Shown: in pieces, positions 43,589-58,375 of the stretch
How positions within the stretch are numbered: position 1 is the stretch's first letter
Layout: each line of letters begins with the position of its first letter
Assembly: GCF_012584445.1 (NCBI RefSeq)
Contig: NZ_JABAHI010000008.1
Coordinates: forward strand, 930,001-994,000
Origin: Olsenella sp. KGMB02461
GTDB lineage: Bacteria; Actinomycetota; Coriobacteriia; Coriobacteriales; Atopobiaceae
Length of the DNA: 64,000 nucleotides
Reading direction: 5' to 3'
Translations under genes and position numbers: made by a program
Notes under the pieces: generated by a model
Told to the model about the DNA's origin: nothing
Seen by the model: only the letters and a program-made list of their open reading frames with translations
Database searches by the model: none

Positions 43589-45829
43589 TTATTCATCATC
43601 GAACTCAATGTCGACCTCAGCTGCCTCGTATACGTTAACAATCTGATCGATATCAATGGTGTTCACGATCCAACTGCGCGCCATGCACTGTTGTTTGAAT
43701 TCATTGATACGGTTCACGCCGTTTATTTCTCTTAAGGTCACCACTAACCCGAATGGTAAATGCTTGTTTGAATTTGGACGATCAGCTCGTTCGGTGGTAA
43801 GGATTTTCACTCCCCACATATTGCTACCACTCACGTAGGTCTTATGAGGCCTCACCCGTGGGCTCAACTTATCGGAAATATGCTTCACGCTGTCCCACTT
43901 ACGGAAGTAAATGCGCGCGTCATCTTCGTTTAGATGAGCCCCTTTCGTACCCTGTACGTTTCTATTGAGCTCTTTTACTCTTGTCCCGGTTTCCGTCTCG
44001 AACAGTCGGCCAAAATGCAGGTCCATCTCAGTGCATGTATAGTCTACGCCCTGATTCCTGTTGCATTGCGGAAAATAGCATAGTGTCGCCCGCGCGACAT
44101 AGGGAAACTTTTCGTCGCGCATCGGCACTGGAATGTTGTATGCGTATGTGTTGTATGCACTCGCTACTCCATTCAGCACAAAACGTATCTCGTCGTTTCT
44201 ACATCTGAGCACATCCTTGATACTCTTCGGAACCACCCCATAACCTATCTGTGAATCAGCGGGGTCATTCTCCCAGCCGATTGAGGAATCAACGATTAGG
44301 GCCTTTGCTATCTCACGCGTTAAACCACATTTATATATGAGGTAGGCAACCTTCCTCGTTATCCACGGCGCGGCAAGAGATGTGCCCGATCCTGTTACCG
44401 GCATATATGGAGCGGCAGCCTTTATCGGGTTTGCCTTTGTACCTCCATAATAGCTGACATCAGGTTTTCCAAAAAATGAGAGTACGGGCCCACTCCTCGC
44501 GTAGTCAACGGTCGTGCCATCTCGATCCACCGAATTGACTACAATTGCGTTGATAGAGTCAGCAGGTGCACCAATACGCGACTGGTTAAGAGCGGTTTTG
44601 TTTGTTCCCGCTACGACAAATATCACATCGTACTGAGTTTGGATGCGATCGAGAATGTCTGCTTCCGGCGAAATCGAGTTTTCGCATATCTCCAATTCTG
44701 CGCCAAGCGATAGGTTCCAAACCTTGATGCCGGGATTGTCCGCTACGATATCTTCAATTTGCCGCATAACGGCAAATGAGCTAAAACGCGTCTTTGTTGC
44801 TACGCCAAAGTGCTTCACTCGGAACCGGCCACAGTCATCTTCTAAATCTGGGTTGAGGGCTGGACCGTCTACGATGATCGAGCTAACAGAAGTTCCATGT
44901 TCGTAGTCGGACTCACGCAGTTGTATCGCTGGATCAAGGCGTCGCTCGTATTCGACCCAATCTGCACAATAAACACGTTTGTCAAATGGAGTATCGATGA
45001 CACCCACTATAGGCTCATTATTCGGACTTGGAATTGCAGGGAACACACCACTCGCCACGCCAAAGTCCTCGCCGGTCCAGTCGCTTGCGTCATCAAGCTC
45101 CATAGCAACTAAGTAGGGAGCGCGAATCCTAAGCTTGGCATATTGTTCTCGCGTTAGCAGAACGCTGGTGCCAAGCACGCGGCTCTTCACAAGATCGTCA
45201 AGACCAACTTCCTGTAGGAGTTCTAATGTATCGCGACCTGTCTCATAGAGTGTTACAAACGCCCAATCTAAATCATCGTCCTCAATATTCTCTGGTATAT
45301 CAAATCGCTGAGCATAAAAGGCATCTTTTATTATTTGCAAAAAATTAGTCTTCCTCATAGAGGTGACAGCCGCAGGGAGATCGTTTTTGCTTACATTACC
45401 GAGATCGTCATCGGTCACTATTCCGTCAAAGCATCTTTCTACAATGGCTGCACTCTCTCTGAGCATCTTCTCAGTTTCGTCGAGTTCGGCACGTTCAATA
45501 CTATAAGTGATAACATGTCTACGTTTTAAATTTGATGCTATGTCATACTTTGCACCTACGATGTGTTCACTCGCTTTGCCATCACCACTAGCAAGCAATC
45601 TCTTTACACGATTGCTCTTTGCAATTACGCGATCGTAGAATACGCAAACCAGTGGATTAACATTAATGGATACGTTATCCCAGAACATTGCCACCGCATG
45701 TATGTCGTTCGCGAGCGCCAGCAGGTGAGCTGCATCAACGCTTTGGCCTTTTGGCAATGAAGGGCGCCCACCTGATGCAGACGAAGACGCGCTTTCGAAA
45801 CTTCCTTTAAGACGCAAAAGGTCATTCAT
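43589..45829 (-). CDS. ietS: Subtilisin-like serine protease (IetS-like)
   Basis: 746 aa, S8 family. Catalytic triad: Asp in VGVIDTPFD (about 278), His in YEHGTSVSS (about 311), Ser in GSGTSLAAPW (about 484). An N-terminal domain of about 250 residues without signal peptide and a C-terminal beta-rich domain flank the protease, so it acts in the cytoplasm. Its start overlaps the stop of the AAA ATPase gene by 4 bp. ATPase plus subtilase is the composition of the IetAS anti-phage system; the assignment rests on architecture and context. Confidence 0.8.
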   Translation of the reverse strand: MNDLLRLKGSFESASSSASGGRPSLPKGQSVDAAHLLALANDIHAVAMFWDNVSINVNPLVCVFYDRVIAKSNRVKRLLASGDGKASEHIVGAKYDIASNLKRRHVITYSIERAELDETEKMLRESAAIVERCFDGIVTDDDLGNVSKNDLPAAVTSMRKTNFLQIIKDAFYAQRFDIPENIEDDDLDWAFVTLYETGRDTLELLQEVGLDDLVKSRVLGTSVLLTREQYAKLRIRAPYLVAMELDDASDWTGEDFGVASGVFPAIPSPNNEPIVGVIDTPFDKRVYCADWVEYERRLDPAIQLRESDYEHGTSVSSIIVDGPALNPDLEDDCGRFRVKHFGVATKTRFSSFAVMRQIEDIVADNPGIKVWNLSLGAELEICENSISPEADILDRIQTQYDVIFVVAGTNKTALNQSRIGAPADSINAIVVNSVDRDGTTVDYARSGPVLSFFGKPDVSYYGGTKANPIKAAAPYMPVTGSGTSLAAPWITRKVAYLIYKCGLTREIAKALIVDSSIGWENDPADSQIGYGVVPKSIKDVLRCRNDEIRFVLNGVASAYNTYAYNIPVPMRDEKFPYVARATLCYFPQCNRNQGVDYTCTEMDLHFGRLFETETGTRVKELNRNVQGTKGAHLNEDDARIYFRKWDSVKHISDKLSPRVRPHKTYVSGSNMWGVKILTTERADRPNSNKHLPFGLVVTLREINGVNRINEFKQQCMARSWIVNTIDIDQIVNVYEAAEVDIEFDDE

Positions 45830-46872
45830 CGATCTTCTTTCATCTCCCTAGATACCGTGCTCTTAGGAATGCCGGTCAGTATTTCAATTTCCCTAACCGT
45901 GTATCCCTGCTCTTTCAGCTTGCGAATGTTGCCTGACGGATTCGTTGCCATTGTCTTATATAGTCTTTGCAAGTAGCTGTATTCATTATCTGGATCGCTG
46001 AAGGCGAGCGAGGTCCGAATTATGTTGGTAAGATCGCCAGGCATAGGGATTTCATTAGCCTGCATAATAATCTTGCGTAAAAGTCGAGTGTTCTTCCCAG
46101 CGTAATCAAATTGCGCTAGTAGATTATTAGTTATTTTTTCTGCTATATCGACCAAGTCATCACGCGTATACCTGCTGAAGTCGATAACAGCATCGAAGCG
46201 TCGCACAATTGCCTTGTCAAGTTTGTTGAACAAATTGGTTGTCGCAACTACAACTATCCGTGAATCGATACGCTCCAACTCACGTAAAAATGTTGAAGTT
46301 GCTCGCCCCATCTCACGCACATCACGTGAATCAGTTCTGTCCATAGCAAGGGCATCTATCTCATCAAAAAGCACAACGTATCTATCCTGATTCGCAAGGC
46401 TGTTAATCTCATCGAAGAGGGCAACTATGTTTTTGCTCGTCTGACCGAGCTTACTGTCGATAATGGAACTAAAATCTACAATTAAAGTTTCCCTACCTAG
46501 AACGCGCGAAATCTGGCGCGCTGTCTCAGTCTTACCTGTACCTGGCGGCCCCTGAAATATGAACTTGTTTATGCCGGCGTTGTGCCCTACAGCATTAATG
46601 ACCCCTCTCACATCATCAGCGATGGATTTGGGAAGTGGAAGTGATGTCTTGGTGTACGGCAATTTCTGCAAGTAATCTGTACCAAGGGAGACACTATCAG
46701 TCTGAGGGACAAACGTATTCGTATCAGAGAGAAGCGCCATAATGTATTCGGCTAGTTGATAATCACCAGAGGCGTCAAAATCGCGCGCAATCTCGTAAGC
46801 TTCGGTCCTGAAAGCAAGATCGTTGTGTTCTGAGTAATATCTAATGAGATTGATGATATTTCTCTTCTTCAT
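45826..46872 (-). CDS. ietA: AAA ATPase (IetA-like)
   Basis: 348 aa. Walker A GPPGTGKTETA, Walker B VVLFDEIDAL, sensor ATTNLFNKLDKAIVRRFDAVI (Arg finger). The C-terminal 25 residues form a resolvase-like HTH (YTVREIEILTGIPKSTVSR), which may bind DNA. I start it at the ATG at 46872 after GGGAGGAAAGG. Translationally coupled to the subtilase gene. Low GC and the neighbouring broken restriction system mark a defence island. Confidence 0.8.
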   Translation of the reverse strand: MKKRNIINLIRYYSEHNDLAFRTEAYEIARDFDASGDYQLAEYIMALLSDTNTFVPQTDSVSLGTDYLQKLPYTKTSLPLPKSIADDVRGVINAVGHNAGINKFIFQGPPGTGKTETARQISRVLGRETLIVDFSSIIDSKLGQTSKNIVALFDEINSLANQDRYVVLFDEIDALAMDRTDSRDVREMGRATSTFLRELERIDSRIVVVATTNLFNKLDKAIVRRFDAVIDFSRYTRDDLVDIAEKITNNLLAQFDYAGKNTRLLRKIIMQANEIPMPGDLTNIIRTSLAFSDPDNEYSYLQRLYKTMATNPSGNIRKLKEQGYTVREIEILTGIPKSTVSREMKEDR

Positions 46873-47005
46873 CTTCCCTTTCCTCCCAGCTGGCCTAGCT
46901 ATATTGTAGGACAATTAATACCTGTTTTGGGACAGCTTTTTTGATTTATGGCAAATTATAGCCATGCTACCTACAGGTCATAAAAATGATCTGTGGTAAC
47001 ACCTA

Positions 47006-48546: not shown

Positions 48547-49317
48547 TTACACAACATTTACCATGTCCTGAACTATTGCCTCATCGACTACCAGCATTGT
48601 ATCCACTGCATAGCCAGGAACTGAGAAATTAACACCGTGAGCAGCTGTTGCAGCAGCGGGAGACGGGATGATTCCAGTGCACGAAGAGTGGAGCTGGGAG
48701 ACTCCGGTGGTAGCGAGAAGCTGGGCGGCATTGGAGGGACGAATGCCGGAACCGGGAAGGATCTCTATGCGATCGCCCCAGGTAGATTGAAGATGCGCGA
48801 TGAGAGGGGCTCCCTCAAGAGCTGTGGGGGCCTGACCGCTGGTGAGCAGTCGATCAACGCCGAGTGACACCAACTGGTTGATGGCCTTATCGGCATCGGG
48901 GGTGAGATCGAAGGCGCGATGGAAGACTGCGGTGGCATGAGCTTGGTGGATAAGATTGACGGCCTCGCTGGTTCGGCTGACGTCGATAGTGCCGGTGGGC
49001 GTGAGACAGCCAAAAGCGATTCCGTGGGCGCCGGCGGCCAGGAGGGATGAGATCTCGGCGAGGAGTTGGGACCACTGGGCGTTGGTGTAGCAAAAGCCGC
49101 CAGCGCAGGGACGGACCATGGCCACTACCTCGAGGCTTGTGTGCTGGCGCACGAGCTTGACGGAAGCCTCGGAGGGAGTGAGGCCGCCTAGGGGCAGCGC
49201 GGAGTTGAGCTCGATGCGAGGGGCGCCGCCGGCCTGGGCGGCGAGGGCGTCGGCGAAGGAGCCGCAGCAGACCTCAAGGGTTATGGGGCGCTGGGATGCT
49301 ATGGGATGTGTGGACAC
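48547..49317 (-). CDS. cutC: CutC family protein
   Basis: 256 aa TIM-barrel-like CutC: LEVCCGSFADALAAQAGGA at the N-terminus, RIELNSALPLGGLTPS, MVRPCAGGFCYTN and ILPGSGIRPSNA. Originally linked to copper homeostasis, though its biochemical role is unsettled. It returns to chromosomal GC after the low-GC island. Confidence 0.92.
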   Translation of the reverse strand: MSTHPIASQRPITLEVCCGSFADALAAQAGGAPRIELNSALPLGGLTPSEASVKLVRQHTSLEVVAMVRPCAGGFCYTNAQWSQLLAEISSLLAAGAHGIAFGCLTPTGTIDVSRTSEAVNLIHQAHATAVFHRAFDLTPDADKAINQLVSLGVDRLLTSGQAPTALEGAPLIAHLQSTWGDRIEILPGSGIRPSNAAQLLATTGVSQLHSSCTGIIPSPAAATAAHGVNFSVPGYAVDTMLVVDEAIVQDMVNVV

Positions 49318-49355
49318 AAGAATTTCTCCAATTGCTTGAGGATATGGATCGCTCG

Positions 49356-49463
49356 CTACATTCGCTTCTGTGCGGTGATAAAGACCTTGTTACCATCCCT
49401 AGGGCCGATGGCAATGATCTCGACGATCTCTACCTCGCCATTATGCATACCCCGCTCATTCAA
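49356..49463 (-). pseudogene. C-terminal remnant of a RelE/ParE-type toxin
   Basis: 35 codons overlapping the end of the antitoxin gene read GEVEIVEIIAIGPRDGNKVF ending TAQKRM, the typical tail of RelE/ParE mRNA interferase toxins. The N-terminal two thirds are missing, so no functional toxin is expected. Confidence 0.6.
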
Positions 49464-49812
49464 AGAGCTCCTCATCAGAAAGGCCGTCTTCATCTAAGCC
49501 ATCGCGCCAATCATGTCCTAGCACCTCGTCGACATCATGAAAGTGATACTTGGGATTGGCGTCCATCTCATGAACACGCTCGGTAGCCACTTTGTAAAAA
49601 TGCTCTAAGCGCAATGTCTCCAGCTCCGCAGCCATGGCTTCTAGCTCAGCGAAATCCACTAGAGCCATATCGATCTCGCCATTTCTTCCTTGGATGTAGC
49701 GTGGCTTATCTTTTACCTGCTCGCGAATCTCTCGAAAGTTTCGCACCATATGGGTGGAGCTGACGATCTGATCTTTAGAGAAAAGCAGCTTGTGATCTTT
49801 AACGTCAATCAT
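49456..49812 (-). CDS. Phd/YefM-like antitoxin
   Basis: 118 aa from the ATG at 49812 with AAGGAG upstream. The segment SSTHMVRNFREIREQVKDKP fits the Phd/YefM N-terminal DNA-binding fold. The acidic C-terminus would bind the toxin, of which only a 3' fragment remains downstream. Confidence 0.7.
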   Translation of the reverse strand: MIDVKDHKLLFSKDQIVSSTHMVRNFREIREQVKDKPRYIQGRNGEIDMALVDFAELEAMAAELETLRLEHFYKVATERVHEMDANPKYHFHDVDEVLGHDWRDGLDEDGLSDEELFE

Positions 49813-49914
49813 CACTACTCTCCTTATGTAAAACTATGCGCACTACAGTATGTATTTTATTACAAATATCCAAGCTTTTCTAGCACTATGCCCTAGGGCA
49901 ACTACACGCGCGCG

Positions 49915-49946
49915 CAAAAACCCGCGGCTTGGAATCAAGTCGCGGG
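49915..49946 (-). terminator. Terminator of the PTS-esterase operon
   Basis: CCCGCGGCTTG-N4-CAAGTCGCGGG hairpin with one mismatch, followed by TTTTTTG on the minus strand, about 60 bp beyond the esterase stop. Confidence 0.88.
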
Positions 49947-50008
49947 AGGGACAAGTACATCGCGTTGTCAGAAGAACTCCTCAAGAAGCTGCGCGGGCAA
50001 TCGTCGAG

Positions 50009-50812
50009 CTAGTGGCGGTCGTCGTCCAGGTTGGCAAGAGAGTCGGGCGAGAGCCAGTCGAGGGCTTCGACCAGGTTGTCTTGGACAAAGTTCCAGCTGT
50101 GGATGCCGTCTACCTGGGCGTAATCGACGGAGAAGCCGTCTTGGACGAGGGCGTCGGCGATGAGGGAGTCGCAGTGAGCAAGCCAGTCGCCGGCGCCTAC
50201 GCGCATCCAAATCTGGGGCTTGGGGGTGGAGGGTTTCTCGGAAAGGGAATGGGCGAGCCAACGGGGATTAAGATCGGTGTTGCGGTGGGCCTCCAGCGGC
50301 TCGAAGAGGGAGAGCTCGCCGGCCACCTGGCCGTTTTGGGCGAGGGCCTCGGGGGTTTCCTCGAAGAAGTGCACAGCCGGGGCGAAGAGCAGGATGCGGG
50401 AGAAGCGGTTTGGGTTCATGAGGCCCAGGCGCAGGGCGCCGTAGCCGCCCATGGAGAAGCCGCCGATGAATGTGTGGGCGCGGTCGCAGGCGACGGGGAG
50501 CAGGTTGCGGACGGTGTCGACGAGCTCGTGGGACACATAGTGGCCGTAGTCGCCGATGGGGCCGCCCTCGGGGCCTACCTGCTTCCACCAGCTGTTGTCG
50601 CCGGCGGGCATGACCACGGCAAAGTTGCGCTCGGCGGCGAAGCGGGAGATGCGGGTGTTGTAGATCCAGCTGTTGACGTCGCACTGGAGGCCGTGGAGCA
50701 AGACGAGCAGCTGGTAGGGCTTGGAGCCGCCTCGGTCGAGGGGCAGCACCAGGCGGCAGGGCACCTCGCGATGGAGGGTTTGGGAGTAAAAGTCGAGGCT
50801 CACAACAGCCAT
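50009..50812 (-). CDS. Esterase D-like alpha/beta hydrolase
   Basis: 267 aa. Nucleophile elbow GGFSMGGYGAL (Ser), opening LVLLHGLQCDVNSW, and VDGIHSWNFV with the catalytic His. Cytosolic, without signal peptide. Family: EstA/feruloyl-esterase/S-formylglutathione-hydrolase-like. Downstream of a PTS transporter and a second hydrolase on one strand, so it may deacylate an imported acylated sugar (inference). Confidence 0.85.
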   Translation of the reverse strand: MAVVSLDFYSQTLHREVPCRLVLPLDRGGSKPYQLLVLLHGLQCDVNSWIYNTRISRFAAERNFAVVMPAGDNSWWKQVGPEGGPIGDYGHYVSHELVDTVRNLLPVACDRAHTFIGGFSMGGYGALRLGLMNPNRFSRILLFAPAVHFFEETPEALAQNGQVAGELSLFEPLEAHRNTDLNPRWLAHSLSEKPSTPKPQIWMRVGAGDWLAHCDSLIADALVQDGFSVDYAQVDGIHSWNFVQDNLVEALDWLSPDSLANLDDDRH

Positions 50813-50926
50813 GATCGCTCCTTGGAAGTGGGGGGGGATAGGGATGGGCTATGCAATAGCAGCAAGGCACCCGGGGCGCTGAGCTCCCGGGTGCCTGACA
50901 AGTGCGATGGGTGATGCTGCGAAACC

Positions 50927-52033
50927 TTAGGCCAGATGGCGGAGCTTTTGGGAGATGGCCAGGGCCAGCTCCTCTGACTGGGGCTCGGAGCCAAAGAGGT
51001 CGAAGAAGCCGTGGTCGCAGCCCTTGTAAGTGACCAGCTCGGTGGGCACGCCGGCGGCGGTCAGGCGGTGGGCAAAGTACTCAGCGCCAATGCGCAGGTA
51101 GTCGTACTCGGAGACTGCCACCACCGTGGGCGGGAAGGCGGCCAGCTGCTCGTCGGAAGCGTAGGCCACAGAGACCAGCGGGTCTTTGAGGCTGGTCTTG
51201 CCCTGGACATAGAGACTGTCTTGGGCGCTGATGTGGCAGCTGCGCTCGATGCGGGCGATGCGGCCGTAGGCCAGCTCGCGATCCTCGTCGATCACCGGAT
51301 AGTCGTCGTAGGACCAGGGGTAGGCTTCCAGCTCGTCCAGGTTGGACATGTCGCAACCCGGGAAGACCAGGTAGCAGGAGGCGATGCGTTTCTCGGCATC
51401 TTTGAGCACCACCGCGCAGGAGAGGGATCCTCCTGCAGAGTCTCCGGCCACCATCACGCGGGCGGGGTCGAAGCCCAGCTCAGAGGCGTGGTCCAGGGCC
51501 CAGTCCAGGGTGGCGCAGGCGTCGTCGATGGCCGCGGGGAAGGGAGCCTCGGGGGCCAGGCGGTACTCCGGGAAGGCCACCAGAGCGCCGGACTGCTCGG
51601 CGATGAAGCGCATGCGGTTGCGGTAGATGCGCTCGTCGCCGGCGGTGAAGCCGCCTCCGTGGAGGTAGAGCAGGAAGGGAGCCTGGGGCGCCAAAGTTTC
51701 CGGGCGATAGAAGTGCACCGGGATGCGGTGGGTCTCCCCCACCGGAATGATCTGCTCCCACTGCTCGATGGGCAAGATGGTGAGATCGGGGGTGACCTTG
51801 TCGGGACGATAACGCTCGTCTGAGAGCGACATGCCTCCACGCTTGTGGGCGCGCTGGGAGAACATGGCAGCCTTAGCCGCAGCCGTGGCGCGCACGCGAG
51901 GGTCGAGGACGTGGTCGCGGTCGTCGTCGGGGATAGGCTTCACCGTGCAGATGAGGGCGCCCTCGCAGGTGGAGGTGGACTTGGCCCCAATGGCTTCTAC
52001 CAGCGCCGGATCGTAGGTGCGAAGCTGCTCCAT
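50927..52033 (-). CDS. HSL-family carboxylesterase (Aes-like)
   Basis: 368 aa. Oxyanion motif LHGGGFTAGD, nucleophile GDSAGGSLS, Asp in SEYDYL and His in CDHGFFD complete the triad. No signal peptide. Starts 8 bp after the PTS stop, so it is in the same operon. Probably hydrolyses small acyl esters. Followed by a second esterase after 114 bp. Confidence 0.9.
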   Translation of the reverse strand: MEQLRTYDPALVEAIGAKSTSTCEGALICTVKPIPDDDRDHVLDPRVRATAAAKAAMFSQRAHKRGGMSLSDERYRPDKVTPDLTILPIEQWEQIIPVGETHRIPVHFYRPETLAPQAPFLLYLHGGGFTAGDERIYRNRMRFIAEQSGALVAFPEYRLAPEAPFPAAIDDACATLDWALDHASELGFDPARVMVAGDSAGGSLSCAVVLKDAEKRIASCYLVFPGCDMSNLDELEAYPWSYDDYPVIDEDRELAYGRIARIERSCHISAQDSLYVQGKTSLKDPLVSVAYASDEQLAAFPPTVVAVSEYDYLRIGAEYFAHRLTAAGVPTELVTYKGCDHGFFDLFGSEPQSEELALAISQKLRHLA

Positions 52034-52041
52034 GGTATCCC

Positions 52042-53943
52042 CTAGCCCATGGAGGGGGTCATGGCGCCAAAGCCGGTGTCATCGTGGACGTCCTGGGACA
52101 CTTGAGCGGCGGGGGCGGGCTCGGTGAGTATGACGATGATGGAGTCGTCGATGTCGCCCTTGGTGAAGGCCATCTTGTCGAACTTGGCGATGGTGTCGCC
52201 GGCGGAGACCTTCTGGCCCTCGCTCACCAGCGCGTTGAGGCCCTTGCCGCCCAGCTTCACCGAGTCGATGCCAATGTGCACCATGAGGGTGGAGCCGGCC
52301 TCGGTGCGGATGCCGATGGCGTGGTTGGTGTCGGCCACGAAGCACACCGTGCCGTCTACCGGCGCCTTTACGGTGTTGTTAGAGGGCTTGAGAGCGAAGC
52401 AGGGGCCAAGGAGACCTTGGGCGAAGGTGGAGTCGGCGATGGAGGCCTGAGGCACATAGGCGCCCTTGCCAGGCATGGAGACAGGCACGCCGGCGCCAGG
52501 AAGCAGCGCGGCATCGGGGTTGTCCAGCGTCTCTTCTTCGTCATCGTAGACGGAGTCGTCAAAGCCAAAGGCGTAGACGGTCACAAAGGAGCACGCTGCC
52601 ATGAAGGCCACGATGCCCACAGCCTTGTAGAAGTTGGTCCAGTCCATGTTGGGACCCAGGAAGAGCAGCAGGCCGGGCAGCGAGTGACAGCCGTAGCCGT
52701 AGGAGTGCAGGCCAGTGATGCCGCAGATGAGACCAGCCAGCACCGAGGTGACAGTAAGGGCATAGTAAGGCTTGACCATGCGGTAGCACAGGCCGTAGAC
52801 CGTGGGCTCGGAGATGCCGCCGATAAGAGCAGACAGGGCAGCCGGCACGGAGAGCTGGTGGCAGTGGTTGTTGCGGGACTTGAGGGTGATGGCCAGGGCC
52901 ACGAAGCCGGCGCTCACAGTGAAGGAGAAGAACCAGAGAGTGATGGAAGCGTCGTAGCCCACAGACTCGATGGAAGCGGTGGCGATGGGCACGAGGGCCA
53001 GGTGGAAGCCGGCGCAGAGCTGGCCGATGGTGCAGGAGAACAGCACCAGGGCAGGAACGACGAGCCAGGGCACGTTAGCGGTGAGCCAAGCGATGGCAGC
53101 GGCCACGTAGTTGGTCATATAGCCGCCGATGGGGCCAGTGGCCACCAGCACGACCACGCTCATCACTACCAGCAAGATGAGGGGCTTGGCGAAGTAGCGG
53201 ATCTGCTCGTGGATGATGCGGGACAGCCAGTGATCCAGCTTGGACATGACCCACACCGAGAGCACGATCTGGATGACACCGCCGTTATAGGTCATAAGAT
53301 AGACCGGCAGGCCAAAGTAGTCGCCATAGACGGCGCCTGCAGCCTGGAGATCGGTCACATAGGTGACAAAGTCCGGGTAGAGCAAGCCGGCGGCCAGCAT
53401 CATGGCCATGATGGGCTCGGTCTCGAACTTCTTGGCCGCAGTATAGGCCACGTAGATGGGCAAGAAGTAGAAGGCCGCCTGAGCAAAGCAGTTGAGGATG
53501 AGATAGGTAGAGCTGTCTGCGGTGACCCACCCGGTCATGGTGAACAGGGTGAGAAGCACCATGATGAAGCCGGCGGTGGTGAGCGCAGGGATGACGGGCA
53601 CCATGATGGAGGCCATCATGAGCAAGAAGTCGCCAGCCACACGGCCCAGAGACTTCTTGCCAGCAGGGGCGGCAGCTACTGCACCAGAACCCTTGCCAGC
53701 GACCTTTTCGAACTCCGGATAGAGCTGCTCGACATCCTGGCCAATGATCACCTGCACCTGGGTGCCATTGTCCTGGATGCCCAACACGCCGGGGATCTTT
53801 TGGATGGCCTTGAAGTCCATCTTGTCCTTGTCCACCGGCTCTAAGCGCAAGCGAGTGGCGCAGTGAGTGTGCGACACGATATTCTCGCGCCCACCGGCCT
53901 TCTCGAGAATGGCGGCTGCCATCTCAGCGTAGTTCTTTGCCAT
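52042..53943 (-). CDS. PTS sugar transporter EIIBCA, beta-glucoside family
   Basis: 633 aa, domains in order B-C-A. The EIIB phosphocysteine is in THCATRLRL (about residue 28). EIIC spans about residues 100-460 with GISEPTVYG (sugar loop). EIIA has NHAIGI and the phospho-His in LMVHIGIDSVKLGG. Imports and phosphorylates a beta-glucoside or related sugar. The upstream palindrome and RpiR gene suggest local control; two esterases follow in the same operon. Confidence 0.93.
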   Translation of the reverse strand: MAKNYAEMAAAILEKAGGRENIVSHTHCATRLRLEPVDKDKMDFKAIQKIPGVLGIQDNGTQVQVIIGQDVEQLYPEFEKVAGKGSGAVAAAPAGKKSLGRVAGDFLLMMASIMVPVIPALTTAGFIMVLLTLFTMTGWVTADSSTYLILNCFAQAAFYFLPIYVAYTAAKKFETEPIMAMMLAAGLLYPDFVTYVTDLQAAGAVYGDYFGLPVYLMTYNGGVIQIVLSVWVMSKLDHWLSRIIHEQIRYFAKPLILLVVMSVVVLVATGPIGGYMTNYVAAAIAWLTANVPWLVVPALVLFSCTIGQLCAGFHLALVPIATASIESVGYDASITLWFFSFTVSAGFVALAITLKSRNNHCHQLSVPAALSALIGGISEPTVYGLCYRMVKPYYALTVTSVLAGLICGITGLHSYGYGCHSLPGLLLFLGPNMDWTNFYKAVGIVAFMAACSFVTVYAFGFDDSVYDDEEETLDNPDAALLPGAGVPVSMPGKGAYVPQASIADSTFAQGLLGPCFALKPSNNTVKAPVDGTVCFVADTNHAIGIRTEAGSTLMVHIGIDSVKLGGKGLNALVSEGQKVSAGDTIAKFDKMAFTKGDIDDSIIVILTEPAPAAQVSQDVHDDTGFGAMTPSMG

Positions 53944-54088
53944 GAATCCTCCCTCATTGCAGCTTGCAGACGATGTTTCATAGACCCTAGGGAAGCTGCG
54001 GGGACTATAACAAGGGAGTTTTTGGCCGCCAGCAACGGCCCCCTAAACGGTTCCTGAGGCGCCGTGAGCGGTAGTGACTTTCTTCTAC

Positions 54089-54125
54089 TTTCATCTATGA
54101 ACGAAAGTTACATTCATAGATGAAA
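54089..54125. promoter_or_regulatory. Putative RpiR operator upstream of the PTS operon
   Basis: Perfect 13-bp arms TTTCATCTATGAA and TTCATAGATGAAA separated by 11 bp, 146 bp upstream of the PTS start and just after the rpiR gene. It is the only strong palindrome in the 314-bp gap. The binding protein is inferred. Confidence 0.65.
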
Positions 54126-54258
54126 AATGAGGTAACTGAGGTTCGTTTTTCTCGGCAAGGAGGAAGGGCTCTGTGAGGAGCCTCATGAGGGAGGTGGCGC
54201 AGGCAGGAGGGTGGGGTTTCTCGGCAAGGATGGATGGAACGGCGAGCCCGCAAGCGCC

Positions 54259-55155
54259 TTAGGGGATGTCCACCTTAGAGAAGATGTAGCGGGAGAATTC
54301 GGCCAGGCAGTCCTGGGAGTCGGGCTTGGCGGCGGCTGTGAGGGCGTAGAGGGTCTCCATGATGGCCAGCTCGGCCATGGAGGTGTTGCCGATGAGGCTG
54401 TCTTGATCCATGTTGTTGGAGGTGACCAGGAAGACGAAGTCGGAGAGCTGGGCCAGCGGGCTTGTGGCGTTGCCGGTGATGCACACGAGCGTCGCCCCTT
54501 CGTCGTGAGCCGCGTGGGCCACCTGCTGCAACGTGCCGCTCCAGCCGGACCGAGAAAAGATCACCAACACGTCTCGGCTGTCGAGGGTGAGGGCGCAGGA
54601 GATGAGCTTCTCGTAATAGGAGCTGGTGGGAGCCGAGATGCCGATGCGCTCGTAATAATAGGAGGCATACTGGGCCGAAGGGATGGAGCGACCCACGGCG
54701 GCGAACTCCACGATGCGCGCTTTGGCCATGATTTGAGCGGCGGCCTTGAGCTTGTCTTGATCGAGCCCCTGAAGGGTGAGGGTGAGCGACGCGATGCGGT
54801 TGTCGAGGATGGCCTCGACGGTTTCGCCCACATGGTCCAGCGAGACAGGTTGGTCTTCCTCGATGGCCGAGAGCCTATGGAGCGTTTGTTGGACCCTCAG
54901 GAAAGAGAGCTGGAAGGAGCGGTAGGAGTTCTCCCCCATCTTGCGGCAAAACCTGGATACCGTAGGGGCGCTCACCTGGCAGAGCCGTGCCAGCTCGGAC
55001 TGGGAGAGCGAGCTCACGTTGGCCTGATGGGCCAGCAGGTAGTCGGCGATGCGGCGCTCGCCCTCGCTCATGGAATCCTTGGTCGCCAGAATGCGGGCTA
55101 TGAGGTTATCGGGGACATTGCTTGCCGACTCTTCGTATACCGCCTTTTGTGCCAT
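54259..55155 (-). CDS. RpiR-family regulator (HTH + SIS)
   Basis: 298 aa. N-terminal HTH_6 (SQSELARLCQVSAPTVSRFC, about 51-70) and a C-terminal SIS sugar-phosphate domain (VFSRSGWSGT-type loop). I start it at the ATG at 55155 after AAGGAAGGGAG. Located between hxlB and the PTS gene on the same strand. Likely senses a phosphosugar and controls the PTS operon. Confidence 0.9.
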   Translation of the reverse strand: MAQKAVYEESASNVPDNLIARILATKDSMSEGERRIADYLLAHQANVSSLSQSELARLCQVSAPTVSRFCRKMGENSYRSFQLSFLRVQQTLHRLSAIEEDQPVSLDHVGETVEAILDNRIASLTLTLQGLDQDKLKAAAQIMAKARIVEFAAVGRSIPSAQYASYYYERIGISAPTSSYYEKLISCALTLDSRDVLVIFSRSGWSGTLQQVAHAAHDEGATLVCITGNATSPLAQLSDFVFLVTSNNMDQDSLIGNTSMAELAIMETLYALTAAAKPDSQDCLAEFSRYIFSKVDIP

Positions 55156-55232
55156 GGATGAGCTCCCTTCCTTTTGTGCTCTAGCATGCCACGAGGGAGG
55201 AGGGGCGGGGAAGATGCGGGTGCCGAGAAACG

Positions 55233-55796
55233 CTACTCCAGGTTGGCGTGGCGCTCCATGAGCTGGGCGTTGGTGCAACGGAGCTCCGGCTGCATGGCCA
55301 AGTTGGCCACCAAGGCATCGCCGATAAGGAGAGTCATTTCCTCGAAGGTGCTGGAGCCTAGCTGGAGCTGTGGTGTGGTGCTCGCCGCATTGGTTACCTT
55401 GTTGGACGCATGAACAGTGATGGTAAGGTGGGCCAGCCGGCCTAGGGGCGAATTGAGCTGAGTGGTAATGAGAACCAATTTGCAGCCTAGCTGCTCGACG
55501 GCTTTTGTGGCGATGGCGACCAGCGTGGCAGTGGAGCCAGAGGCCATGATGAGAAGATCCCCAGGCTGTGCAGCGGGAGTGGATACGTCCCCTACTACAT
55601 AGGCGCTTTTGCCTAAATGCATGAAGCGCATGGCCAACGCGCGCATCATGAGGCCAGAGCGGCCAGCGCCTGCAAAGAAGATATGGGGGGCCTCAAGGGC
55701 GAGCTGCTGGAAGGTTTGGAGCTGGGTTTCATCAAGCTCTTGGGTAGTGGCTTCAAGCTGGGCAAGCAGTGCTTCCAGGTGTTCTTTTGTCTCCAT
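55233..55796 (-). CDS. hxlB: 6-phospho-3-hexuloisomerase (HxlB/PHI)
   Basis: 187 aa SIS-domain protein: FFAGAGRSGLMMRALAMRFMH, then MASGSTATLVAIATKA and the C-terminal FEEMTLLIGDALVANLA are characteristic. Isomerises arabino-3-hexulose 6-phosphate to fructose 6-phosphate in the ribulose monophosphate route. Its start overlaps the stop of the ManA-HxlA chimera by one base. Confidence 0.9.
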   Translation of the reverse strand: METKEHLEALLAQLEATTQELDETQLQTFQQLALEAPHIFFAGAGRSGLMMRALAMRFMHLGKSAYVVGDVSTPAAQPGDLLIMASGSTATLVAIATKAVEQLGCKLVLITTQLNSPLGRLAHLTITVHASNKVTNAASTTPQLQLGSSTFEEMTLLIGDALVANLAMQPELRCTNAQLMERHANLE

Positions 55797-56818
55797 TAGC
55801 GCATGGCCTCCTTGAGCTCCTTGGCGGCTTGAGCGATGTCGGGCGCGTTATAAAGGGATCCGCCTGCTATCACTATGGCAGGATGCAAGGCGAGATAGTT
55901 GTCAAGGGTCTGGAGCGAGATGCCGCCAGCCACTGCGCAGCGAGATGGATCGACGGCGCCCACGAGTACTTCCAGGTCTTTAAGGGGCGTGCGGCCTTGG
56001 GCCTGGGCGTCCACGCCGGTATGAACGCACACGTAGTCGATGCCAAGGTCGATGACCTCTTGGGCGCGAGCCGCGATATCTGGGACGCAGATCATGTCGG
56101 CCATAGCCTTGCGGCCGTATTGATGGCAGACGTCGGCCACGTCTTTGATGGTGGCGTTGTCTGACACTGCCAGCACTGTCACGATGTCCGCTCCGGCTTC
56201 GCAAAGATCTTGCGCCTCGATGACGCCGCCATCCATGATTTTGGCATCGGCAAGCACACAGAGGTTGGGGAAAGCTGCTTTGAGGGCCTTCACCACATGG
56301 GCGCCTATGGCATGGAGGGTGCCCACGGGGATGTCGATGAAGCCGTCGACCCGGGCGGGCAAATAGCGCAGGAGCTTGTCCCACTGGCCTTGCTGGGTCC
56401 AGGTTTCGAACTGCTCGCGAGTGGTGGCGTGGTGGCCAAACTCGATAGTGGCGTCTTTGGGGGCATCCAAGATGACCCAGGCCTCGGGCTTGCCGCGGCC
56501 GCCGTTGTAGGTGGCGGCAAAAACGTCGTCAGGGTGAATCTGAATAGACAGCTCGTCGATGGGATCGAGGATGTTCACACGAATGGGCAGCTCCTGAGTG
56601 TCACAGTCGAAGAGGGCAGGCAGATCGCGGTAGAGCTCCGAGAGCGTGCAACCCAGCTCGGGGACGCCGCAGTCTGCGTGGCCGGGCAGCGCCACCACGT
56701 TGTAGACCTCGCCCAAAGGGGCCACCTGCGTGTGGTAGCCAAACTTGTCGCGCAGCCTGGTGCCTCCGCCCCACATGCGAGGCTCGTAATAGGGGTCGAT
56801 ACGATAGAGCTTGCTCAT
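55796..56818 (-). CDS. Chimera: ManA N-terminal half fused to HxlA C-terminal part
   Basis: 340 aa. Residues 1-170 are type I mannose-6-phosphate isomerase (RMWGGG, IHPDD, KPEAWVIL, PVGTLHAIG) and stop halfway through that fold. From HVVKALKAAFP onward it is 3-hexulose-6-phosphate synthase (ADAKIMDGG, VHTGVDAQAQG, AVAGGI) but lacks about the first 38 residues, including the first strand with its active-site Asp. I infer an in-frame deletion fusing manA to hxlA; neither activity is assured. Start ATG 56818. Coupled to hxlB. Confidence 0.8.
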   Translation of the reverse strand: MSKLYRIDPYYEPRMWGGGTRLRDKFGYHTQVAPLGEVYNVVALPGHADCGVPELGCTLSELYRDLPALFDCDTQELPIRVNILDPIDELSIQIHPDDVFAATYNGGRGKPEAWVILDAPKDATIEFGHHATTREQFETWTQQGQWDKLLRYLPARVDGFIDIPVGTLHAIGAHVVKALKAAFPNLCVLADAKIMDGGVIEAQDLCEAGADIVTVLAVSDNATIKDVADVCHQYGRKAMADMICVPDIAARAQEVIDLGIDYVCVHTGVDAQAQGRTPLKDLEVLVGAVDPSRCAVAGGISLQTLDNYLALHPAIVIAGGSLYNAPDIAQAAKELKEAMR

Positions 56819-56949
56819 GATGCTTCCAATCACTTGAGAGCCGGAATATGACTCTCACAATAGAGGAACATAGGGAAGCGGGTAATTTGCGTATTATTGC
56901 GTTTTGATGGATCGCAAGTCTTTGCAAAGTTTACAGTTGGCGCCCAGTG
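56819..56949 (-). promoter_or_regulatory. Promoter region with ACGCAA repeats
   Basis: On the minus strand AACGCAATAATACGCAAA occurs about 75 bp before the chimera start, next to CTTTGCAAAG. Direct repeats of this size suit a DeoR-type regulator such as the product of the adjacent upstream gene. Confidence 0.4.
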
Positions 56950-57717
56950 CTAATCGATACCTGCCACCAAGACCTTAAGTATGGGAGGTAGAGAGGCTCG
57001 GGTTTTCTCGGCAAGGGAATCGTCGGTGATAAGGGCGTCAATGGACTCCCAAGATGCGTAGGTATGAAGGCCAGGTTCTTGGAACTTGGAAGCAGCGGCA
57101 AGCACGTAGGTCAGGTCGCTTTGATCAATGACTACCTGCATAAGGTTAAGCTCGACGTAGGAGTGAGTGGTGGGGCCTGTTGAACCATGGAGGCCAGAGG
57201 TGCCTAGTAGCGCGAGATCAATGTGGACAGTGCGAAGAAAGCGGTCGGTCCAAGGGCCTAACAGGGATTCGTTCTTATGGCGCTTTTTGCCAGGAAGTAC
57301 AAACACGTTGTGGCGGGTGGCATCGAGCAGCTGGGCGGCTTCGAGGGATGGGGTGAAGATATCCAGCGGCTCGGCACGATTGAGGAAGGGCACACAAGCC
57401 AGCGCAGTAGTACCGGCATCTAGGTAGATTGAGTGGTTCTCTTGGATGTGAGCGCAGGCGCATCGAGCGATCTTCTCCTTGAGGTGGGAGGGATCGCTGC
57501 GAAAATCCAGAGGCATCTCGAGGCCGTAGCCGCGAAGTAGCGCGCCGCCGTGGGTACGCTGGGCAAGGCCCAGCTGCTCGAGGGCTACCAAGTCTTGGCG
57601 GATGGTTTCTCGGGTGACCTCATAGCGCTGCGCCAATTCAGCAGAGCGTACTGCTCCCTGCGCTTGCAGCAACTGAGCAATCTCTTGTTGGCGCTGAGCT
57701 GAAGTATAGGCAGCCAT
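56950..57717 (-). CDS. DeoR-family regulator
   Basis: 255 aa. N-terminal HTH (RSAELAQRYEVTRETIRQDL, then LEQLGLAQRTHGGAL) and a C-terminal DeoRC sugar-phosphate sensor (SIYLDAGTTALACVP, DLALLGTSGLHG). I start it at the ATG at 57717; the longer open frame is leader. Upstream of the ManA-HxlA/hxlB operon on the same strand and likely its regulator. Confidence 0.9.
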   Translation of the reverse strand: MAAYTSAQRQQEIAQLLQAQGAVRSAELAQRYEVTRETIRQDLVALEQLGLAQRTHGGALLRGYGLEMPLDFRSDPSHLKEKIARCACAHIQENHSIYLDAGTTALACVPFLNRAEPLDIFTPSLEAAQLLDATRHNVFVLPGKKRHKNESLLGPWTDRFLRTVHIDLALLGTSGLHGSTGPTTHSYVELNLMQVVIDQSDLTYVLAAASKFQEPGLHTYASWESIDALITDDSLAEKTRASLPPILKVLVAGID

Positions 57718-58072
57718 ACTCGCATCCCTGAGCTGAGGTGTACTGACTTGATAGTAGCGGGTTGCGAGTATCTGCGGAGCGCTGCATTTGGGAGAGTGGC
57801 GCCGGAAGACGGGGTGCGGCTTGCCGAGAAGGCTTGTGAGCAAGTGTAGGGAGCCTAAAGGAGGGCAATTCTCGTAATGAGGCGAGTGTCAGCAATGGAG
57901 TTTTGCGTTGTCCCATTGCTCACTAGCCTTCTGAGCATGGTGCCACTTGCTTTGAGAGCTTGTGAGCAAGTTGGTTGGGGAGCCATCGAAGGACTCCGAC
58001 CATTTTGGTGTCCAATATGCCGACCAACGCAAAAAGGCCACCGGCAATACACCGATGACCTGCGATTTTAAC

Positions 58073-58267: not shown

Positions 58268-58375
58268 GCTATTAGAAGCTTCACTGCATGTCTTCCCACG
58301 AGGTTCTCGTTAAAAGTGGGGGTAACTGCACTGGGGTTATACAAAACCCCAGTGCAGTTACCCTTCTAATAGCGA
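58266..58375. repeat. Nested inverted repeats
   Basis: Outer pair TCGCTATTAGAAG (58266-58278) and CTTCTAATAGCGA (58363-58375) encloses a 19-bp perfect hairpin (58320-58338 and 58345-58363, loop ATACAA). The outer left arm directly abuts the partial tRNA copy. The inner hairpin may terminate the leftward PNP gene. Confidence 0.7.

Follow-up and report, generated by a model that had tools for sequence, protein, structure and literature searches.

The window, a stretch of 64,000 nucleotides from the draft genome of Olsenella sp. KGMB02461, holds a sugar cluster on its minus strand in which a single open reading frame combines the front of mannose-6-phosphate isomerase (ManA) with the rear of hexulose-6-phosphate synthase (HPS, HxlA). 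A DeoR-family regulator lies upstream of this chimera, and hxlB, an RpiR-type regulator and a PTS EIIABC follow downstream on the same strand. In the features below, identities refer to G013, a genome of the same family.

56950..57843, minus strand: DeoR-family regulator upstream of the chimera, open frame, start uncertain
55796..56818, minus strand: chimeric manA'-'hxlA reading frame, 340 codons plus stop
56303..56818, minus strand: ManA-derived part, residues 1-172, ending ...GTLHAIG, 79.7% identity to G013 ManA
56299..56306, minus strand: deletion join, manA Gly172 GGC followed by hxlA GCC CAT GTG, ambiguous by about 3-4 nt
55796..56302, minus strand: HxlA-derived part, residues 173-340 plus stop (A-HVVKALKAAFP...), 63.3% identity to G013 HxlA
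55233..55796, minus strand: hxlB, 6-phospho-3-hexuloisomerase, 187 aa, intact (TIGR03127, 171.6 bits, cut-off 160)
54259..55278, minus strand: RpiR/MurR-type regulator (HTH_6 and SIS), open frame, start uncertain
52042..53943, minus strand: PTS EIIABC, beta-glucoside/sucrose group, 633 aa, intact

The chimera had been located at 55796-56818 in the first-pass annotation; the position holds and the strand needs correction to minus, the plus-strand reading of the same interval containing a stop. The translational coupling to hxlB described there is indeed kept, as the chimera stop and the hxlB start share one base (TAATG). Elsewhere in the window, an AAA ATPase and S8 peptidase pair (43589-46914, minus strand) resembles anti-phage IteA and IteS, with scores against NF042959 and NF042956 (NCBIfam) both far under the curated cut-offs. 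Near a tRNA gene, about 50 bp (58307-58356) match several places on both strands of the sister-species genome G001, a pattern as for a small dispersed inverted repeat.

The frame runs open for 340 codons with neither stop nor frameshift inside it. By hmmscan, TIGR00218 (ManA) matches residues 3-98 at 41.9 bits, below its cut-off of 116.2, and TIGR03128 (HxlA) matches residues 160-339 from profile position 26 at 194.9 bits, just under the HPS family cut-off of 200. Pfam places OMPdecase/HUMPS on residues 170-334 and a sub-threshold PMI_typeI_cat match (19.7 against 22) on residues 4-99. Matches of relatives cover one half each, either residues 1-172/176 (ManA) or about 155-340 (HxlA). These profile matches and the half-by-half homology confirm the earlier reading of the frame as an in-frame ManA-HxlA chimera whose ManA half extends up to GTLHAIG; ManA homology ends at the Gly172 codon.

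Separate and adjacent manA and hxlA genes, sought in relatives on the suggestion of the first-pass annotation, were found in G013 and in three further loci (L033, L034 and L035), each time unbroken and in the same order and strand. In G013 all parts are complete: manA (317 aa), a 23-nt gap, hxlA (208 aa) and hxlB. A close ManA (78%) occurs only there among 140 family genomes, with hxlA (63%) directly after it. Of the three Erysipelotrichaceae/Firmicutes loci, L033 and L034 also show the manA-hxlA-hxlB order, and in L035 manA-hxlA is followed by a 188-aa frame. DeoR-type genes adjoin manA-hxlA-hxlB in G013 and L033.

The DeoR-manA-hxlA-hxlB operon, or parts of it, recurs in Coriobacteriia and Erysipelotrichia-like genomes (L033, L034, L035 and L080, the last being the G013 locus), and these recurrent operons carry a distinct ManA subfamily. 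The L035 locus also has a glycerol-1-phosphate dehydrogenase-like gene and a HAD phosphatase. A second ManA gene of G013, just downstream of hxlB (L080:7700-8669), is a pseudogene with its start and end in two frames and an in-frame TAG between them. The ManA of Erysipelotrichaceae bacterium OPF54 (L039:5983-6934) is split over two frames of 98 and 289 codons, which is a frameshift or sequencing error.

Relative to G013, the chimera lacks 581 bp (L080:6006-6586), made up of 145 ManA codons, the gap and 39-40 HxlA codons. The length is an estimate from G013 coordinates, and both it and the exact parent are inferred from this genome, which differs by dS > 1. In the alignment to G013, ManA homology ends at the Gly codon, HxlA homology takes over from the next codon, at about residue 41 of G013 HxlA, and nothing is inserted. 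The window reads CTC CAT GCC ATA GGC | GCC CAT GTG GTG AAG across the join, where G013 manA has CTC CAT GCC ATC GGT GAC GGC and G013 hxlA has GAG GGC GTG CAC GTG GTC CGT. The two parents could therefore share GGC, perhaps GGCG, at the join, at most about 3-4 nt. This does not support the earlier suggestion that a GLHAVKAL-like stretch of short homology drove the deletion. The site assigned to the junction, LHAIG-A-HVVKAL, stands; its placement inside a shared word does not, as the join lies at the Gly codon. A word common to manA and several HxlA genes does exist, CATGCC (His-Ala), and a crossover within it was considered and rejected, since it would yield LHAVKAL, yet the product has a full LHAIG before AHVV. 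The manA and hxlA genes of G013 occupy different reading frames; a deletion between such parents would thus also have put them into one frame, for which the chance is one in three.

What was lost bears directly on activity. On the ManA side, Gln93, His95, Glu112 and His169, presumably the metal ligands (QxH, E and the H of GTxHA), are all present, and 145 of 317 residues, the second half, are gone. The missing part includes the NAD.TLRLYDYDR segment after GTxHAIG, which carries a conserved Arg and is invariant in six relatives, as well as the C-terminal cupin domain. On the HPS side, the active-site positions of 3AJX are A6, D8, E30, G32, T33, P34, D59, K61, D64, D109 and H134 (PMC5980557 Table 1), and G013 HxlA has all of these residues at identical numbers. 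The chimera retains the equivalents of Asp59, Lys61, Asp64 and His134 (D191, K193, D196 and H266) together with Asp109, the Asp of MADMIC, and so keeps the DxKxxD motif; Ala6, Asp8, Glu30, Gly32, Thr33 and Pro34 fell inside the deleted part. With its first 39-40 residues gone, the HxlA portion is no eight-stranded barrel with Asp8 and Glu30. The loss of strand 1, helix 1 and the active-site Asp noted in the first-pass annotation is real, and wider than described there, as strand 2 and Glu30 are missing too.

Lacking strands 1 and 2, a (beta/alpha)8 barrel would not be expected to close in the usual way. Judged from its sequence, the chimera very probably catalyses neither the HPS reaction, because these strands and Asp8/Glu30 are missing, nor the mannose-6-phosphate isomerase reaction, because it is left with half a cupin that lacks the conserved Arg segment and the C-terminal domain. 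AlphaFold models the HxlA remnant (residues about 166-340) confidently, with pLDDT mostly 75-96, so some folding of the product is possible. For the ManA part, pLDDT is about 25-47 over most of its length; an intact ManA run as a control with six sequences was equally poor there, and the model therefore says nothing on the folding of this part.

No second hxlA was found in the genome of the window, and HPS function has thus very probably been lost from the organism. Since the genome's only hxlA is broken, the RuMP pathway is probably absent, and the recent loss of RuMP function suggested earlier is supported as probable. Four other ManA-like matches occur in the same genome, two of which (C12:566556 and C11:57415) look like complete frames, with 367 and 342 codons. 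Glucose-6-phosphate dehydrogenase is absent from G000, G001 and G013.

The fusion has a one-genome distribution. It was found in none of 139 other family genomes, nor in anything else searched (396 class genomes and 22 named relatives), and a plasmid search gave no match. Among the genomes searched, the architecture is confined to the window's genome and does not recur in several species. In the collection of papers searched, neither a fusion of ManA with HPS nor a shared operon of the two was described. Conservation across the genus, which would have marked the fusion as old and functional, was looked for and not found; the genus relative G001 is without the whole cluster. In this sister species, the only other genome of the genus compared, the flanks are kept at about 91% identity: CutC (window 48609-49288) on one side and, on the other, all sequence from window 58056 onwards. 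The interval separating them measures about 1.1 kb (L110:3596-4710, equal to G001:C1:1633595-1634709), against window 49288-58056. Within this interval, scraps match window 50011-50047, 54299-54342, 54732-54891 (RpiR, 85%) and 57820-58066. Scraps between kept flanks mean that this species once had the cluster and that several deletions took it away; the PTS-RpiR-hxlB-chimera-DeoR region was lost by at least three. The RpiR scraps are joined at imperfect GC-rich repeats, e.g. TTGGCGGCGGC. Removal of the cluster from the sister species argues that losing the parents of the chimera is tolerable and common in the genus.

The deletion also appears to be young. The chimera has changed 11 of the 165 positions at which seven ManA or eight coriobacterial HxlA relatives do not vary, all 11 outside the named motifs and none at catalytic residues. 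Single relatives put to the same test show 0-2 differences (ManA) or mostly 0-3 (HxlA), and the most distant HxlA shows 10. As dN/dS mainly reflects the period that preceded the deletion, it is unfit for dating it, and an upper bound was taken from simulating neutral change instead. In this simulation 11 differences are reached at about 0.03 substitutions per site, and the 5-95% range still takes in 11 at 0.05. Provided that no selection has acted on the gene since its disruption, the deletion would be younger than about 3-5% neutral divergence, compared with dS > 1 to G013. Few changes at invariant positions fit a young dead gene and a selected functional product alike.

We propose that the chimera is the scar of a recent in-frame deletion, left in a sugar cluster which is dispensable and which the genus is losing, and not a new enzyme (probability about 0.85). 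The ancestral operon here would have been DeoR-manA-hxlA-hxlB. A single deletion of about 580 bp would have reached from ManA, at the Gly codon of GTLHAIG, to a Gly/Ala codon that opens the second helix of HxlA; manA would have lost its C-terminal half and hxlA its first 39-40 codons, the short spacer between them would have gone as well, and a common reading frame would have been restored by chance. The resulting protein would have neither HPS nor mannose-6-phosphate isomerase activity; hxlB would perhaps still be translated through its coupling, without an HPS partner. Loss of the whole cluster from the sister species marks it as dispensable in the genus, and for this reason the loss can be taken as recent and tolerated.

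The counterpoint to a deletion scar is that 340 open codons and nearly all invariant residues in both halves are also what a functional protein would have. A new fusion under selection, with the cupin half or the HxlA remnant in a new role (a regulator, a binding protein or a scaffold for HxlB), would account for the open frame, the kept start, the coupling to hxlB, the sparing of catalytic residues by all 11 changes and the confident prediction of the HxlA remnant. This reading, the new fused protein of the first-pass annotation, is nevertheless very improbable: the fusion is present in a single genome, its barrel lacks two strands and key residues, a young deletion predicts equal conservation, and the sister species has dispensed with the whole cluster. 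We regard as very improbable the more specific proposal of a stable, selected chimera in which the half cupin isomerase caps or completes the open HPS barrel and so creates either a new activity or a protein that regulates HxlB. The faintest prospect is partial activity, either of the truncated ManA part alone or of the HxlA remnant with another subunit; the retained Gln93, His95, Glu112 and His169 and the Asp191-Lys193-Asp196/His266 set might allow weak catalysis, but ManA is short of nearly half its residues and HxlA of strands 1 and 2 with Asp8/Glu30.

An assembly or consensus artefact, in which separate manA and hxlA genes are really present and the assembler dropped about 580 bp, is no less improbable than a new fusion under selection. 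The source is a 13-contig draft, and the judgement is made from this one assembled sequence of the species. However, the join lies inside a 1.53-Mb contig, the window contains no N, and the result is exactly in frame. A collapse normally needs a direct repeat; no repeat spanning the join was found in its neighbourhood, which speaks against a simple collapse.

The chimera can be compared with each of its parents. Over their full length, its residues 1-172 align with the N-terminal portion of type I mannose-6-phosphate isomerase (solved relative 1QWR) and contain the QIHP, GKPEAW and GTLHAIG motifs, whereas everything past GTLHAIG, including NADCTLRLYDYDR and the C-terminal domain, is missing. 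Residues 173-340 align with HPS (TIGR03128; solved relatives 3F4W, 3AJX and 9LJ9) from the second helix to the C-terminus and keep DxKxxD and VHTGVD, whereas strand 1, helix 1 and strand 2, with Asp8, Glu30 and the GTP residues (Gly32-Thr33-Pro34), are lost and the score falls under the family cut-off. As a deletion scar, the chimera is of consequence chiefly for annotation: automatic pipelines may label such a product hexulose-6-phosphate synthase and so credit the organism with a RuMP pathway.

In the bifunctional HPS-PHI fusion HxlAB (NF041755), two complete enzymes are fused (PMC11237513). HPS and the same operon are involved in both cases; in the chimera, by contrast, two broken enzymes are joined and HxlB is separate. 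If functional, the chimera would be a case in which one step turned two half-enzymes into a new protein. As a deletion chimera of adjacent operon genes, it is of an ordinary kind: like others of neighbouring operon genes, it combines adjacent co-directional genes, one deletion, an in-frame join and a one-genome distribution. Nothing sets it apart from them, its frame merely happening to stay open to the end. Taken with the sister species, it records the stepwise loss of one sugar cluster within one genus, a small and well-dated example of operon decay.
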